This document shows, piece by piece, positions 12,159-60,717 of a stretch of 64,000 nt of DNA; the stretch's first letter is position 1; each line of letters begins with the position of its first letter. The stretch is from Acidimicrobiia bacterium (GTDB lineage: Bacteria > Actinomycetota > Acidimicrobiia > Acidimicrobiales > Bin134), in the NCBI GenBank assembly GCA_022822265.1, contig JAJECA010000025.1, positions 124,001-188,000 on the forward strand, given 5' to 3'. The position numbers were made by a program, and so were the translations under genes. The notes below the pieces were generated by a model that did no database searches, was not told where the DNA came from, and saw nothing but the letters and a program-made list of their open reading frames with translations.

Positions 12159-15100
12159 TCATGGACGCCAGCGGTTGGCCAGTTCGGTCACCGGTTCCAG
12201 CAAGAGGTCTTCTGTTCCTATGGCACCCAGCCGATCAAGGCGGAAATCGGGCTCGGTCTCCGTGACCTCATCGCGCAAGGCAGCGAACCGATTCCGGTAG
12301 CCCTCTAGCACTTGCTGGGCCACTTCAGCGGAGAGACGGGGCTGGAATTGAACGTGCAGCAAGGTGAGTCCGGTTGTCTGGCGGTCTTTGACCTCTGGAA
12401 TAAGCACGATGGTCCGGCCATCAGAGCGGCCTCGAGCAGCCAGGACCTCACGCTCGATCGCCACTAGGTGTTTGCTGCCTCGCAGGGTCGGGTCGCGCTC
12501 GGTGCGGGAGGCCAGCCCCACGGTGATTCCGCCCCGGTCGACTACATGGATGGTGGTGTTTGATGCTTCCGGGTCGCCGCTGATGGCATAGCGGATGTAG
12601 CCGGTGACCTCGGCGACCGCGGGGTCGAGTGCGGTCAAGGTGCGCAGCGTCTGGTAGCTGAGCTGGTGCCGGGGGGCGCCCGCGTCGAGGGCCGCCCGGA
12701 CCAAAGGCAACTCCATCAGCGACTCCTCGGCCCGAGATATCCCGACGGTGACGGTCTTGGCCTGGTGCCGAATGGCGTCCACCGGCCGGGTCAGCTCACC
12801 CACCGCCACAGTTAGCATGGCGGTGAGGTCTTCCAGCACCACCGCGGGCGTGCCGACCCGACCCCTCTCCAGTTGGTACGCGTCGAGCGGGGCGATGCCC
12901 AGGGCATAGCGGTACATGGAGGCCATCTCGGCAGCAGTTCCCGCCTCCAAGCAACCGTTGTAGCGGCCTTGGCGCAGGTCTTGGAAAAACCGCCCGGCGG
13001 CGGGAGCGAACTGCGAGCGAAGTTTGACCAGCAGTTCCTGGCTGTCGATCTCGGCATTGCTGGCGGCAACCTCGGCCTCGATGGCGGCCCGGGTTTCCCG
13101 TAGGGGCTGGGCCAGTTCGTCTATGGCCAGCGCCGACTCATACCCGAATAGATGGCCCACCATGGTGGCCAGCACGAAAGCCAGTTCGGGCGAGCCGGAG
13201 GAGGGAGTGGCGATTACTTCGGAAGCCGCGTCGAAGCGAGCTTCGGTGTCGCTGGTGATCACGATGGGGGCAGCCTTGTGGGCGCGGAAAATGGCCACCT
13301 CTTTGGCTACGTCGTCGGCAGTGGAGTCGAATAGGCCGGCGGCGCACACCAGGATCAGCGGCTCCGACGAGAGATCGATGTGCTTCTTGTCCTCGGTGGT
13401 ATCGCAGGCAATGGACTTGTAGCACAGCTCCGATAGCTTGATGCGGACTTCCTCGGCGGCCACCCGGTTTAGACCGTTACCCACCACGGCCCAGTAGGTG
13501 TGGCCCAGAGCGTGGCGGCGGACGATATCGGCGATGCGACCGTGGAGGCTGAGCACGCTGGCCATGGCCGCCGGCAGATCGCGCAAAGAGGCCAGCAATT
13601 GCTGGCGGCGTTCGTGCTGGCGGAGGTCGGACGGCGGCTGCCCGCTGACCGCGTCGGCTAGGGCCACAGCCAGCAGCACACCGGCGGCCACTTGGGCATA
13701 GAAGGCCTTGGTGGAGGCCACGCTCATCTCCACATCCCGGCCGTCAGAGGTGTACAGCACCCCGTCGGCCTTGTCGCACAGATCGCTGTTGCGGCGATTG
13801 ACGATGGCGATGACACTGGCCCCTCGGCGGCGCACAAGATCAACGGTGCGGTTGGTGTCGGTGGTGGTGCCCGACTGGCTGATGGCGATGACCAAGGTAT
13901 CGCTCATGTCGGATCGCATCCCGAACCCCGACAGCTCAGTGGCCTGGACCGAGCTCACATGGCGGTTGGGCAGCTCTTGGCGCAAGAAGTAGGCCAGGCT
14001 GTGCGCGGCTACCGCGGCAGTGCCCTGGCCGATGACGATGATGTCGGCGACGCTCCCGTCGGCCAGCCGTCGGAGAAGATGGTCGGGCAGGGTTTCGGAT
14101 CCCAGCTTTACCGCCAGACTCGGAGAAGGCTGGTCATCCTCGGTGCTGACGATGCGGCCGCGCAGGGTCTTGCGAAACGATTCGGGCGACTCGGTGATCT
14201 CCTTCAGCAGATAGTGCCGGAAGCCACGTCGGTCGACGTCTCGAGTGGTGATCTCCGCATTGACGATGTCGGTCTCGGATATTGGCAGCGGAGTGCCGTC
14301 GTAAGAGAACCGCCCAATGGCGCCTAGGTCCCCAGCGTGGTCGCGGTCGAGCGCTATAACCTGGCCCCGGCTGGCTGCGGCGTTCCCCGGCTCCGACGGG
14401 GTCTCGCCGTCCATGCGCAGATAGCGGGTGGACTGCTCCACCAGTCCGTAAGGCTCGCTGGCCACCACGTACGCATCTTCGGCGGTCCCGATGTACATGG
14501 CCTGGCCGCTTCCCCGCAAGGCCAGGAGGAGTTGGCCCGGATTGGCCGCGGCTTGCCCGACGATGGCCACCGAGCCGTTGAGGTCGGCCACTGTGCGGCG
14601 GAAGGAGTCGATGGTGCCATCAGCGCTAGCCGAAGGTTCCAACCGGGAAGACCACAGAGCGGGGATGACTTTGGCGTCGGTGGTGATGCCAGGGTCTAGG
14701 GCCAGGTCGTGTTGAGCGACCAAATCGGTATGGTTGTCGACGTCGCCGTTCAAGGCACCGATGGTGTAGGGCAGGGTGGCGCCTGTGGTGAGTTCGGAGT
14801 TGAGCGGATGGGCGTTGGCCTCGTTGATCATTCCCACACTGGCCCAGCGGGTGTGTCCGATGACCGTCGCCGAGGCCCCCTCATCTTCCACTGCGGCGGC
14901 CAGCAGCTCGTCTGCGGCAATGGCGGCTCGCAGGGCCGCGGTGTTGTCGCCGAGTTCGCCGATCTCCGCCGCTGCCTTGTAGATGAAGCTCAAACAACCT
15001 TCGGCCCATCGCACCGATCCCGATCGGAACAGCGGATCGGCTGATCTCTCGGCCAGGGCGGCAGCCACCGCCGGAGTGGTTGGGTCGAGGCCATGGCCGC

Positions 15101-15632
15101 TGACCAGCAAGTGGAGACCGGCCGAGTCTCGACCCCGAACCTCTAGGCGGTCGAGTGCCGACAGGGCAACCTGAACCGAGGAGAACACGGCCAGTGCGGC
15201 TTGTCCAGCCGCGGGGCCGGCCAGATCGGCCACCGCGTCGGCGGTGTTCAAGCGGTCGTTGCTGATGGCCCAGACCGCGTCCTTCATCTCGATCAGCGCG
15301 GCGTTGACTGCCTCAGAGGCCCTCTCGCCAGCCGACTGATCCAAGTCGGCCTCCAGTGCGCCGATCAACCGGTCGATCTCGCTCACCGTGGCTCGGATGG
15401 TGGCCCGCAGCGTCTTTTCGACCAACAGCGCCTGAAGCCCTGCGGTGCCCTGGAGCAGGCGGTCGGCCTGGGTCAAGCTGGCTGCCGCGGCCCCGATACC
15501 CCCCGCTAGATCACCGGTGCTTCTCAAGTCGCGCAAAGACACGACCACCGGGCTCAAGAGGTCGAGGACCTCGGCCGAGGTCGGGGGAACACGCTGTGAG
15601 TCGCGCCGGACCACCGCGACAATGCCGCACAT
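12159..15632 (-). CDS. glmS: Giant GlmS-like glutamine-fructose-6-phosphate aminotransferase (about 1157 aa)
   Basis: Predicted first enzyme of UDP-GlcNAc synthesis, but almost twice the usual 610 residues. The start at 15632 gives MCGIVAVV, so Cys is N-terminal after Met removal, and GGGGGAG precedes it. RGRDSAG sits at 166-172 instead of about 26-32, meaning some 140 helical residues are inserted. GHTRWAS is at 259-265 and NGDVDNH at 295-301. KEITESPESFRKTLRGRI (477-494) leads into SIS domain 1 (530-660, ISQSGTTTDT, VASTKAF), and SIS domain 2 spans about 710-830. A motif resembling the canonical GlmS C-terminal end (RPVDAIRHQAKTVTV) occurs at 949-963, followed by about 195 more residues. 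glmM is close by. The catalytic role is inferred. Confidence 0.85.
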   Translation of the reverse strand: MCGIVAVVRRDSQRVPPTSAEVLDLLSPVVVSLRDLRSTGDLAGGIGAAAASLTQADRLLQGTAGLQALLVEKTLRATIRATVSEIDRLIGALEADLDQSAGERASEAVNAALIEMKDAVWAISNDRLNTADAVADLAGPAAGQAALAVFSSVQVALSALDRLEVRGRDSAGLHLLVSGHGLDPTTPAVAAALAERSADPLFRSGSVRWAEGCLSFIYKAAAEIGELGDNTAALRAAIAADELLAAAVEDEGASATVIGHTRWASVGMINEANAHPLNSELTTGATLPYTIGALNGDVDNHTDLVAQHDLALDPGITTDAKVIPALWSSRLEPSASADGTIDSFRRTVADLNGSVAIVGQAAANPGQLLLALRGSGQAMYIGTAEDAYVVASEPYGLVEQSTRYLRMDGETPSEPGNAAASRGQVIALDRDHAGDLGAIGRFSYDGTPLPISETDIVNAEITTRDVDRRGFRHYLLKEITESPESFRKTLRGRIVSTEDDQPSPSLAVKLGSETLPDHLLRRLADGSVADIIVIGQGTAAVAAHSLAYFLRQELPNRHVSSVQATELSGFGMRSDMSDTLVIAISQSGTTTDTNRTVDLVRRRGASVIAIVNRRNSDLCDKADGVLYTSDGRDVEMSVASTKAFYAQVAAGVLLAVALADAVSGQPPSDLRQHERRQQLLASLRDLPAAMASVLSLHGRIADIVRRHALGHTYWAVVGNGLNRVAAEEVRIKLSELCYKSIACDTTEDKKHIDLSSEPLILVCAAGLFDSTADDVAKEVAIFRAHKAAPIVITSDTEARFDAASEVIATPSSGSPELAFVLATMVGHLFGYESALAIDELAQPLRETRAAIEAEVAASNAEIDSQELLVKLRSQFAPAAGRFFQDLRQGRYNGCLEAGTAAEMASMYRYALGIAPLDAYQLERGRVGTPAVVLEDLTAMLTVAVGELTRPVDAIRHQAKTVTVGISRAEESLMELPLVRAALDAGAPRHQLSYQTLRTLTALDPAVAEVTGYIRYAISGDPEASNTTIHVVDRGGITVGLASRTERDPTLRGSKHLVAIEREVLAARGRSDGRTIVLIPEVKDRQTTGLTLLHVQFQPRLSAEVAQQVLEGYRNRFAALRDEVTETEPDFRLDRLGAIGTEDLLLEPVTELANRWRP

Positions 15633-15790
15633 CTCCCCCAAGGTTAGTGGGCTGTATTGGAAATGACTTGCCGAGTGCTGACAGAGTAAAGGGCCGCTAA
15701 CCGACTTGTAGACGAAAGTTGCTGTTTGGTTTACCTCAGCGATTGTCGGCGCCCACATTTGGGTCACAAACCCGTTACGGCGCTATATAT

Positions 15791-16765
15791 ATGCTGAGCA
15801 GAGTGGTTAAATCCTGGCGCATCGTGCCTGTCTTGGCCTTGGCCTTTGCTGCTTTTTCGGCAGTTTCAGCGCAAGCAGCCCACGCCTCGACTGCGGGGAT
15901 ATTGGACATCGAGCAGCTAGACAGGCTGATCGTGGAGCAAGAGGAATCGCTGCACGTCTTTCGCTGCCAATTCGATGTTGACGCCCAATTGGTGTTTGGA
16001 GGGTGCAGTCAAGGGGAACCTGTCCAACCGGTCGACAGCCCACCTCCATTCGTTGGCACCCCCAGAGTGGAAGATGTCGTTCACCGCATCCGCGTAATAA
16101 TGGCTCAACAATCGCTGCTCAACATCTATCGCTGTCGATTTGGGATCGACACAGAGATCGTTTACGGGGGGTGCGGCAATGTCGGGAAGCAGGATGGAGT
16201 CGACGAAGCCGATGACAACGAAGAGGTTGACGAAGTCGACGAGGTAGACGAAGTCGACGAGGTAGACGAAATCGGGGGCTCGGCGTCTTCGGCTGGTTGG
16301 GTCTCGTTTGATGAGGCGAAACCCAACCACCCCGGTCTGAAGCGACCTCGCCAGGTGGGCGTCCTGACCGAATCAATCACATCGGCAGGGCTGCCCGAAG
16401 GGATGAAGGCCGAGTTGGTGGTGGCGTGCCTTTACTTCGACAGCGAAGAGGAGACGACGTTCAGGGCTTACATAGACTGGAATAGGTTCATCACGTCGCG
16501 GATCAGCATCTACGACCTGGCCGTAGAATTCGCCGATGGGGAGAGCAGGGCTCTACCAGCGATCAACAGCACAGTCAACGAAGCCTCCTTCGTGTTGGGT
16601 GCAGAGGAGTCGGTCCAATTCGCCCAGTCATTGATCGACTCCGACGAAGAGACGGTGACAGCATCGATCTTCATTCCATTTGGCGGGTGGACAGCCTCGG
16701 CGACATTCGACTTGAACGGTTCCGCGGCCGCCATCCAACCCGTCCTCGACAGATGCAGCGGCTAG
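15791..16765 (+). CDS. Secreted protein with tandem YRC/GGC domain, acidic linker and unknown C-terminal domain
   Basis: Family not recognised. The product has 324 residues. A signal peptide (basic start, hydrophobic 11-26, cut near SAQAAHA at about 32) predicts export. Residues 40-128 hold two copies of a unit with consensus YRCxFxxDTxxVxGGC, cysteines at 59/72 and 115/128, joined by a PPPFVGTP linker. The same domain opens the RCC1-like protein at 58179. Next comes an acidic run of Asp-Glu-Val repeats (about 138-161), then a C-terminal domain of about 160 residues rich in beta-type sequence with two cysteines. The ATG has no clear ribosome site. An in-frame GTG at 15803, 12 bases after TATATAT, could be a leaderless start. 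It lies between glmS and glmM on the opposite strand. Confidence 0.75.
   Translation: MLSRVVKSWRIVPVLALAFAAFSAVSAQAAHASTAGILDIEQLDRLIVEQEESLHVFRCQFDVDAQLVFGGCSQGEPVQPVDSPPPFVGTPRVEDVVHRIRVIMAQQSLLNIYRCRFGIDTEIVYGGCGNVGKQDGVDEADDNEEVDEVDEVDEVDEVDEIGGSASSAGWVSFDEAKPNHPGLKRPRQVGVLTESITSAGLPEGMKAELVVACLYFDSEEETTFRAYIDWNRFITSRISIYDLAVEFADGESRALPAINSTVNEASFVLGAEESVQFAQSLIDSDEETVTASIFIPFGGWTASATFDLNGSAAAIQPVLDRCSG
15908..16174 (+). repeat. Two-copy YRC/GGC protein domain, 56-residue period
   Basis: Encodes residues 40-128 of the secreted protein. Copy 1 ends FRCQFDVDAQLVFGGC and copy 2 YRCRFGIDTEIVYGGC. Each has C-x12-C, and the first cysteines are 56 residues apart. The linker contains PFVGTP. The RCC1-like gene has the same spacing and the same linker motif (PFEGTP). 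Confidence 0.85.
16223..16273 (+). repeat. 18-bp tandem repeat encoding an acidic linker
   Basis: Two complete 18-base units (GAGGTTGACGAAGTCGAC and GAGGTAGACGAAGTCGAC) and a 15-base partial third unit encode the Glu-Val-Asp run of the linker. The near-perfect units suggest recent slippage expansion, so copy number may vary between strains. Confidence 0.85.
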
Positions 16766-58178: not shown

Positions 58179-60260
58179 TCAGGGGTTGTGCCAGGTGACT
58201 GCGTCGGGCATCAGCACGAGCCCGTAGCTCTGATCGCCCCAGCAGGTGATGGCCTGATTGGCATCGATCCCGCACGAGAAGTTGCCGCCCGCGGTGATGG
58301 CAGTGAAGGTACCGGCAGGGGGATCGGTTTGGCCGAAGGAATTGCTACCCCAGCAAACCGCAGAGCCATCGGGTCTCAGCCCGCAAATGTGGGAGTTTGC
58401 TGCGTCGATGGCCACGAAGGTGCCGAAAGGCGCAGTTCTCCTGGTCCCCCAACAGGTGACGGTGCCTTCGGTCCTAAGTCCGCAAGAATATCCAAGGCCT
58501 GCGGTGAGAGCGGTGAAGGTGCCGCTTGGGGGAGATGCTTCGTTGTGCCCGTTATCGCCCCAGCAGGAGACGGTGCCGTCGGTCTTAAGGGCGCAATTGT
58601 GGTAGTAGCCGGTAGCCACCACGTCGAATTGGCCGCTGGGGGCATCTCGCTGCCCGGAGCTGTTGTCGCCCCAGCAAACGAGTGTGCCGTTGAGCCTCAG
58701 CCCGCAGGAGTGGTCGCGGCCCGCGGCGACTGCGGCGAAGGCCCCGCTAGGGGCTGTCGCCTGTCGGGCCCAATTGTCTCCCCAGCACACTGCTGCTTGG
58801 TCGGTACTCAGCGCACAACCGTGGCCCAGTCCTATTGACACCGAAGTGAACTCACCATGCGGTGGTTCTTGGCTGAAGAAGCTGGAGTCGCCCCAGCAGC
58901 TGATGGATCCATCGGTTCGGAGCCCACACCCGTACTTTCGAGTGGAATCGACTGAGGTGTAGAAGCCGTCGGGAACCGTGGTGTGAAGGAAGGGGTTGGA
59001 TCCCCAGCAGACAACGATGCCTTCGGTACTCAGACCGCAGGAACTGCGATAGTCGGAGCTGATCTGGGTGAAGGTCCCGTCGGGAGCGTTGGTTTGTCCG
59101 TATTGGTTGTCGCCCCAGCACGAGATTGTGTTGTCGGTCTTGATGCCGCAAGTGAAGCCTCTACCGGCAGAGAGCGCAGTGAACGTGCCGACCCTTGGGC
59201 TACTTGGAGAATTCGCAAAGCTGCTACCCCAGCACGTGACGAAGCCGTTGGTTCTCAGCCCGCAGATGTGGTGCGTGCCTCTGGCCAAAGCGGAGAACGC
59301 ACCGGAAGGCGCGTTCAAGATTCCGGGGTCGTGGCTTCTGCCCCAACAGGCGATTGTCTGGTCGGTCCTGATGCCACAGGCGTTGAAGTAGCCGACAGAG
59401 ACTGAGGTGAAAGTACCCGCGGGCGGCTCACCCAGGCGACCGTCCCAGTCTCTTCCCCAGCAGGCGATGGTTTGGTCGGTTTTGATGCCGCACACATGAC
59501 TGTTCCCCACGGAGATGCTGATGAACGAGTCGCTGGGGATCGGCGTGTCCGGGAATCCCCTGCCCCAGCAGGCGATGGTTTGGTCGGTTCTTATCGCGCA
59601 TGCATCATTGGAGTTGGTGGAAATTGCCGTGAACGTACCGCTGGGAGCATTGGTGATCTTTCCGCCCCAGCACTCGATCCTCTGGTCCACGGTCAGAGCG
59701 CAGGAGTAGAGACCATCGGGAGAGACAGCGGAGTATCGGCCGGGAGGCGAATTCGACTCTCCGAAGCTGTTGGTTCCCCAGCAGTCAATGGTTTGGTCGG
59801 CTCTGATCCCGCACGCTTGTTCGGCGATGGCAACGGAGGTGAACGGGTTTTCTGGAGGTGGTTCCCCGCAGCCGCCGGGCACTATGTGGGTGTCTACGTT
59901 GAACAGGCAGCGGTAGACATTCAGCAGTGCCTCTTGGTTGTCGATCAGCCGGTCGCGCACGTTGAGGGCGTGCTGGGTGGGGGTGCCCTCGAACGGCGTT
60001 GGCTGGATTGGGCCTGCTGCGGGGGCGCCACCTGCGCAGCCGCCTTGTACGACGTGGGTATCGATGTCGAACCGACAGCGGTACGCGTTTAGGAGCGATT
60101 CCTGAGCGGCGATCAGCTGGTCGCGCAATTCGATGTGCTCCAAGGGAACCTCATCGCTGGCTGCTTCCTGTGCGTTGGCCACCGCACTCCCAAAGGACAG
60201 CACCAGCAGGCATGCCAACAGAGCGCTGGTCAATAGGCACCAGGGTCTCATTAGAGACAT
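58179..60260 (-). CDS. Secreted RCC1-like beta-propeller repeat protein with N-terminal YRC/GGC domain
   Basis: Exported protein of 693 residues. The signal peptide (about 1-30) contains a cysteine-bearing hydrophobic core ending SAVANA. Residues 44-131 hold two YRCxFxxDTxxVxGGC units, cysteines 62/75 and 118/131, joined by PTPFEGTP, the same domain as in the protein at 15791. From about 140 there are 15 modules of 33-38 residues, each with an invariant C-x9-CWG and most with P-x-G-x-F, so each module probably has its own disulfide. Fourteen or 15 modules would fit two seven-bladed propellers. The ATG is at 60260. Role unknown, probably extracellular binding. Confidence 0.85.
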   Translation of the reverse strand: MSLMRPWCLLTSALLACLLVLSFGSAVANAQEAASDEVPLEHIELRDQLIAAQESLLNAYRCRFDIDTHVVQGGCAGGAPAAGPIQPTPFEGTPTQHALNVRDRLIDNQEALLNVYRCLFNVDTHIVPGGCGEPPPENPFTSVAIAEQACGIRADQTIDCWGTNSFGESNSPPGRYSAVSPDGLYSCALTVDQRIECWGGKITNAPSGTFTAISTNSNDACAIRTDQTIACWGRGFPDTPIPSDSFISISVGNSHVCGIKTDQTIACWGRDWDGRLGEPPAGTFTSVSVGYFNACGIRTDQTIACWGRSHDPGILNAPSGAFSALARGTHHICGLRTNGFVTCWGSSFANSPSSPRVGTFTALSAGRGFTCGIKTDNTISCWGDNQYGQTNAPDGTFTQISSDYRSSCGLSTEGIVVCWGSNPFLHTTVPDGFYTSVDSTRKYGCGLRTDGSISCWGDSSFFSQEPPHGEFTSVSIGLGHGCALSTDQAAVCWGDNWARQATAPSGAFAAVAAGRDHSCGLRLNGTLVCWGDNSSGQRDAPSGQFDVVATGYYHNCALKTDGTVSCWGDNGHNEASPPSGTFTALTAGLGYSCGLRTEGTVTCWGTRRTAPFGTFVAIDAANSHICGLRPDGSAVCWGSNSFGQTDPPAGTFTAITAGGNFSCGIDANQAITCWGDQSYGLVLMPDAVTWHNP
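59868..60131 (-). repeat. Two-copy YRC/GGC domain in the RCC1-like protein
   Basis: Copies end YRCRFDIDTHVVQGGC and YRCLFNVDTHIVPGGC. Both have C-x12-C, and the first cysteines are 56 residues apart, as in the gene at 15791. Both copies are preceded by an amphipathic RDxLIxxQExLLN helix-like stretch. Confidence 0.85.
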
Positions 60261-60288
60261 GTCAGGTGAGTGTAGGGAAGGAACGCCT

Positions 60289-60717
60289 CTAGTAATAACT
60301 GTAATAACCGGAGTAGACGTAGACGCAGGGGACATCTTCCTCGGCGTACATCTCCACGTTGCGGGGGTCGTCTTCGAGGGCGTAGAGCAAGTCGAATCGG
60401 TGGCGGCGGAGGTTGTCCACTTCGGTGGCCTTGTACGCCCGCGAGGAGCCGCCGCTGTTGGGCGGTCGCAGGATCAGCAGGTCCCAGCGGACCTCGTGCA
60501 TCTTCAACCAGGCCAGCGTGTCATCGAGCAGGTGCCAGGGGCGGGCGGTGAGCAGTACTACCGTGAGGTCGGCGGCCAGTGAGCCGACCAACGACACCGT
60601 CGCCTCCAGCGGAGGGTCGTCGGGGCAGCCGGCGAAGAATTCATCCCAGCGGCGGGCTGTGGCCAAATGCTGGCGACTGCTGGCATCGGAAATGACCCCG
60701 TCCACATCCACGATCAC
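60289..60717 (-). CDS. HAD-superfamily phosphatase (PNK 3'-phosphatase-like)
   Basis: Protein of 142 residues with all HAD motifs: VDVDGVISDA (nucleophile Asp and acid Asp) at the start, VVLLTARPW near 65, a lysine in SRAYKATEVDNL near 105, and ALEDDPRNVEMY near 120. The layout resembles stand-alone polynucleotide-kinase-type 3'-phosphatase domains. The GTG at 60717 has GGAGG upstream, and codons before it have no start in frame. It lies 62 bases after acs on the same strand. The C-terminus is unusually Tyr-rich (YVYSGYYSYY). Confidence 0.82.
   Translation of the reverse strand: MIVDVDGVISDASSRQHLATARRWDEFFAGCPDDPPLEATVSLVGSLAADLTVVLLTARPWHLLDDTLAWLKMHEVRWDLLILRPPNSGGSSRAYKATEVDNLRRHRFDLLYALEDDPRNVEMYAEEDVPCVYVYSGYYSYY

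Follow-up and report, generated by a model that had tools for sequence, protein, structure and literature searches.

Two secreted proteins encoded in a window of 64,000 nucleotides from an Acidimicrobiia bacterium share a duplicated cysteine-containing unit, YRC/GGC, in front of unrelated C-terminal parts. This raises the question of whether the unit is a domain in its own right, how far it is distributed, and which task it fulfils on proteins that differ in this way. The YRC/GGC unit is a real and new family of secreted domains whose probable task is of a familiar sort.

The YRC/GGC unit in the two window proteins

P0001 (15791..16765, plus strand) is a secreted protein of 324 amino acids according to its translation, a structural model and Foldseek. 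A signal peptide is followed by the YRC/GGC pair, an acidic DEVDEV linker, and a beta-rich C-terminal domain. P0002 is a secreted RCC1-repeat protein encoded on the minus strand; its ORF spans 58179-60335 with a likely start near 60260, from which it covers 58179..60260 (translation; Pfam RCC1_2). Its C-terminal part passes RCC1_2 of Pfam with an E-value of 2.7e-74 in 13 stretches and 243.7 bits against a cut-off of 22. The initial annotation had assigned a signal peptide and two copies to both proteins, which was confirmed; it gave no strand, and the RCC1 protein is the one on the minus strand.

In P0001, the divergent copy 1 comprises residues 35-75 (15893..16015, plus strand; profile match E 2.4e-18) and copy 2 comprises residues 91-131 (16061..16183, plus strand; E 4.8e-20). 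In P0002, copy 1 is located at 60027..60149 (profile match E 2.7e-22) and copy 2 at 59859..59981 (profile match and modelled pair 59859-60149), both on the minus strand. The range 15908-16174 first given for P0001 is indeed the site of its copies, the second of which runs just beyond it to 16183. The C-x12-C pattern in all four copies, the distance of 56 residues within each pair, and the P-x-PF-x-GTP linker also held.

Alignment of the copies from the whole window genome defines a unit of about 41 residues, consisting of a helix and a Cys-x12-Cys turn, with the short consensus vRDxLIaxQEaLLNvYRCxFxxDTxxVPGGC and the longer consensus xTxxxxxxRDxLIxxQExLLNVYRCxFxVDTxxVPGGC. The repeat itself had thus been seen correctly, although only its second half had been caught, as the unit begins about 20 residues earlier with the helix RDxLIxxQExLLN. 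In 25 aligned copies, the positions without any variation are Q16, L20, R24, C25, D30, and C38; across all carriers collected, the gap between the cysteines is exactly 12 residues in 173 of 184 copies. The two cysteines of each unit are predicted to be, probably, linked by a disulphide. The conserved polar stripe formed by D10, E17, N21, and R24 was not accepted as proof of a binding face, since the helix may be conserved for structural reasons alone.

Relation to known domains and predicted structure

The unit had not been recognized as any described domain, and searches of known families agree with this. In Pfam, the best E-value among 25 scanned copies was 0.1, with each family found in a single member only. 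No match to NCBIfam was obtained with the whole P0001 and P0002 sequences, and a profile search of the PDB reached a best E-value of 0.94. AlphaFold2 predicted a compact fold for the P0002 pair with high confidence (70 pairs as alignment; pLDDT 95.9, pTM 0.85), in which a short turn and then the second cysteine come after each of the helices 3-26 and 59-82; the module is also confident in the model of P0001. Foldseek retrieved no similar fold for the modelled pair from the PDB (best E 5.8) or from viral models (best E 2.9). Identity with a known domain was rejected on the basis of these searches, and the pair is apparently, as judged from the predicted model, a fold without a solved relative. 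In a literature search of limited scope, no description of the domain was found.

Distribution of the domain

A profile search of the window genome found 27 full copies, distributed over 13 secreted proteins, with E-values from 4e-24 to 2e-16, a similarity far above chance. The 13 proteins are spread over 12 contigs, by which a mere local duplication was rejected. YRC/GGC is present in 22 of 22 genomes of the genus searched, with 5-40 copies each. Outside the genus, no full match was obtained at an E-value of 1e-3 among the sampled genomes of the order (192), the class (388), and the phylum (395); these samples overlap, and genus members included in them did give matches in the same searches. 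A looser profile yielded two matches in other genera (E 0.0015 and 0.0099), which are coiled-coil helices without cysteines and were dismissed as chance matches. Scanning 84,980 species with a sequence pattern, an approach of limited sensitivity, gave 26 loci, all of them in metagenome-assembled genomes labelled Acidimicrobiia or 'bacterium'. Within the samples searched, the domain is restricted to one genus. The initial annotation had predicted many carriers throughout Acidimicrobiia; the carriers are indeed numerous, but their spread is much narrower.

The family is universal in the genomes of the genus that were searched and unseen in those sampled outside. Within the genus, it marks a set of surface and secreted proteins and provides a handle for finding and testing them. 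One source of YRC/GGC, MPNQ bin134 of the 'Sva0996 marine group', was binned from the microbiome of the sponge Aplysina aerophoba (PMC5649159), so that the genus is at least partly sponge-associated. The other source records are presumably sponge-derived as well, and the genus may be Candidatus Poriferisodalis or one close to it.

Architecture of the carrier proteins

The carriers were collected as 97 distinct proteins, some of whose ORFs are cut by contig or locus ends. Two copies are present in 82 of them, one in 14 (some truncated), and six in a single protein. The paired copies are mostly 56 (63 pairs) or 52 residues (16 pairs) apart. The pairs may all go back to a single ancestral pair that was passed on whole: the copy class, first or second, was correctly predicted for 101 of 140 copies, yet the closer likeness among copies of the same protein points the other way. 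A hydrophobic, signal-peptide-like stretch precedes the module in 92 of the 97 carriers, as called, like lipoboxes, by simple rules rather than by a trained predictor. More than 20 types of effector are joined to the module, in line with the expected combination of signal peptide, module, and variable C-terminus in many proteins. They include RCC1 (23 of 97 carriers by motif count), Trypsin_2 with PPC, Amidase_3, Transglycosylas, OpuAC, CAP, Calx-beta, cadherin, PKD, GmrSD_C-like, PD40, and Polyketide_cyc2, and some without a known domain. The Amidase_3, Transglycosylas, and OpuAC carriers belong to families whose members work in the cell wall or close to the membrane. A location of the OpuAC carrier beside transporter genes was rejected, as the neighbours read in L010 encode P450, dehydrogenase, and thiolase instead.

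The carriers are essentially without other anchors or C-terminal sorting signals. Among 76 C-termini checked, a hydrophobic tail was seen in a single protein and an LPXTG-like string in a different one; the signature of sortase substrates, a C-terminal LPXTG with a hydrophobic tail, was found in none of them. Sortase itself is encoded by 19 of the 22 genomes of the genus. A lipobox at the end of the signal peptide is convincing only in L067 and L068 and, by eye, also in L163.

In nearly all carriers, the module is N-terminal, directly after the signal. Such a usually terminal position would suit a tag for routing or maturation, which a secretion or processing machinery would recognize and which would then be removed or left inert. 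This seems very improbable, because the pair stands at the very C-terminus in three proteins (L131, L166/L065, and L137), two of the three pairs in the six-copy protein L016 are internal, the predicted geometry of the pair is that of a confidently folded module, and module-only proteins occur. L016 (4381-6720, minus strand, G000 contig 10) is an RCC1 protein with long AEPAEP repeats between its three pairs.

Tandem arrays of paralogues are located at L129:8896-17706 (G020; about 8 genes) and L132:1827-5058 (G021; about 3 genes). Each paralogue consists of a signal peptide, a YRC/GGC pair, and a common domain of 210 residues (ELWGGGTGWAYNSRG...) for which no Pfam match was obtained. L118:4926-5174 encodes a single-copy protein of 83 residues, whose tail GTYTAARS matches the end of the RCC1 protein of L112; judged from its sequence, it looks like an internal deletion derivative.

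Amidases with and without the module

Relatives of the window genome's module-bearing amidase occur elsewhere in the order, in 42 of the genomes sampled beyond the genus. None of 29 relatives from other genera whose N-termini were read carries the module. A lipobox was called by rule in 12 of them and recognized by eye in two more (L207 and L224), and the rest mostly have another hydrophobic N-terminal segment. The window genome itself encodes a 62% identical paralogue (G000:C19:208-936), which is a lipoprotein without the module. In these amidases, the module thus occupies the place of the anchor. Although the comparison covers one effector family only, it lends independent support to the early idea of an envelope or surface-anchoring domain. 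The two paralogues of one genome represent a natural experiment, in which a lipid anchor has been exchanged for a protein module. The lipobox of bacterial lipoproteins has the same position in related amidases as the module, which differs from it in being a protein module whose carriers nearly all lack a lipobox.

Probable surface retention and alternative functions

Based on the amidase comparison and on the presence of the module on wall enzymes, retention at the surface is the most likely function. With moderate confidence, it is proposed that the YRC/GGC module holds secreted proteins at the cell surface instead of a lipid or membrane anchor. Each unit would form an amphipathic helix that ends in YRC and continues into a short turn, stapled back by the second cysteine 13 residues on, and the tandem units would pack into one compact module. 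After export, this module would keep the attached variable domain at the surface, the role of the lipid or membrane anchor in the relatives, and would probably dock to an envelope partner common to all carriers. The parts of this reading that we infer are the disulphides and the surface retention. Like the module, LysM, SLH, SPOR, and PG_binding are terminal modules common to wall enzymes and diverse surface proteins; unlike these, the YRC/GGC unit has no Pfam match and the modelled pair no PDB neighbour.

A ligand on the sponge host or in a matrix, rather than in the cell's own envelope, could also be bound by such a module. RCC1, cadherin, and CAP are eukaryotic-like protein types discussed as mediators of sponge symbiosis. 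Their occurrence among the effectors and the origin of at least one carrier genome from a sponge microbiome are consistent with adhesion to the host. This appears improbable, as the module is also carried by enzymes of the wall and by a solute-binding protein, and it stands in the place of lipid anchors; for such proteins, a host ligand would have no evident use.

Retention at the surface is itself confronted with the module-bearing lipoproteins L067 and L068 and with L163, on which a pure anchor would be redundant, and with the 14 single-copy carriers. L067 and L068, from two genomes, comprise little besides the module, and L051 is a secreted module-only form. In the single-copy transglycosylases L088, L146, and L017, the helix is prolonged by regular heptads. 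The lipoproteins L067 and L068 and the heptad extensions suggest that the module may achieve retention by docking or pairing to further molecules instead of binding the wall directly.

Homotypic assembly, in which helices pair between molecules and build mixed surface oligomers or a lattice, with the tandem pair as the intramolecular equivalent of a dimer of single-copy proteins, would accommodate the heptad-extended transglycosylases, the module-only forms, and the long coiled coil capped in L163. It would also agree with the finding that copies of the same protein resemble one another more closely than those of different proteins do (0.715 versus 0.660; permutation p 5e-5). We nevertheless consider it unlikely as a separate explanation, since the pair is already a confident monomer in the model and has no obvious need for a partner. 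Homotypic pairing overlaps with docking and could perhaps be its mechanism.

The lipoprotein L163 (1734-2657, G021) combines a long coiled coil of heptads with a divergent YRC-like cap, LRCxxxxDIELVLDGC. Its C-terminal domain resembles that of P0001 by eye, and it is possibly an ancestral form of the module proteins. A search for L163 homologues beyond the genus, run without a positive control, found none.

Returning to retention by docking, the closest parallel is provided by the dockerin modules of cellulosomes, which are duplicated short segments, terminal on many unrelated secreted proteins, and serve docking. YRC/GGC resembles them in its duplicated terminal segments on many unrelated secreted proteins and in a likely constant partner, but it lacks a Pfam or structural match and has two conserved cysteines per unit. 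The dockerin profile of Pfam had no match among the 25 scanned copies, and no cohesin-like partner was found. A genus-wide docking system, in which the disulphide-stapled fold plugs secreted proteins into a dedicated envelope receptor, possibly other carriers of the module such as the lipoproteins, is conceivable, if rather doubtful. With such a system, the symbionts could exchange their surface effectors without constraint, as dockerins allow in cellulosomes.

The C-terminal domain of P0001 and its genomic context

The C-terminal domain of P0001 has no Pfam match, and matches to it occur in 11 of 22 genomes of the genus. Foldseek related it to IalB, the invasion-associated protein B of Bartonella (PDB 3dtd), with a Foldseek probability of 0.99 and a TM score of 0.56 on the target, at a weak E-value of 0.02 and 8% identity; the likeness is at the level of the fold and a hint rather than a sign of membership. 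A relative of this domain without the module, apparently split over two frames, is encoded in L177 (G011:C61). In the window, P0001 lies between two genes on the opposite strand. One of them (12159-15767, minus strand) encodes a GlmS-like protein that contains GATase_6 and SIS domains and, with 1202 residues, is about twice as long as usual, and the other encodes a GlmM-like phosphoglucomutase/phosphomannomutase.
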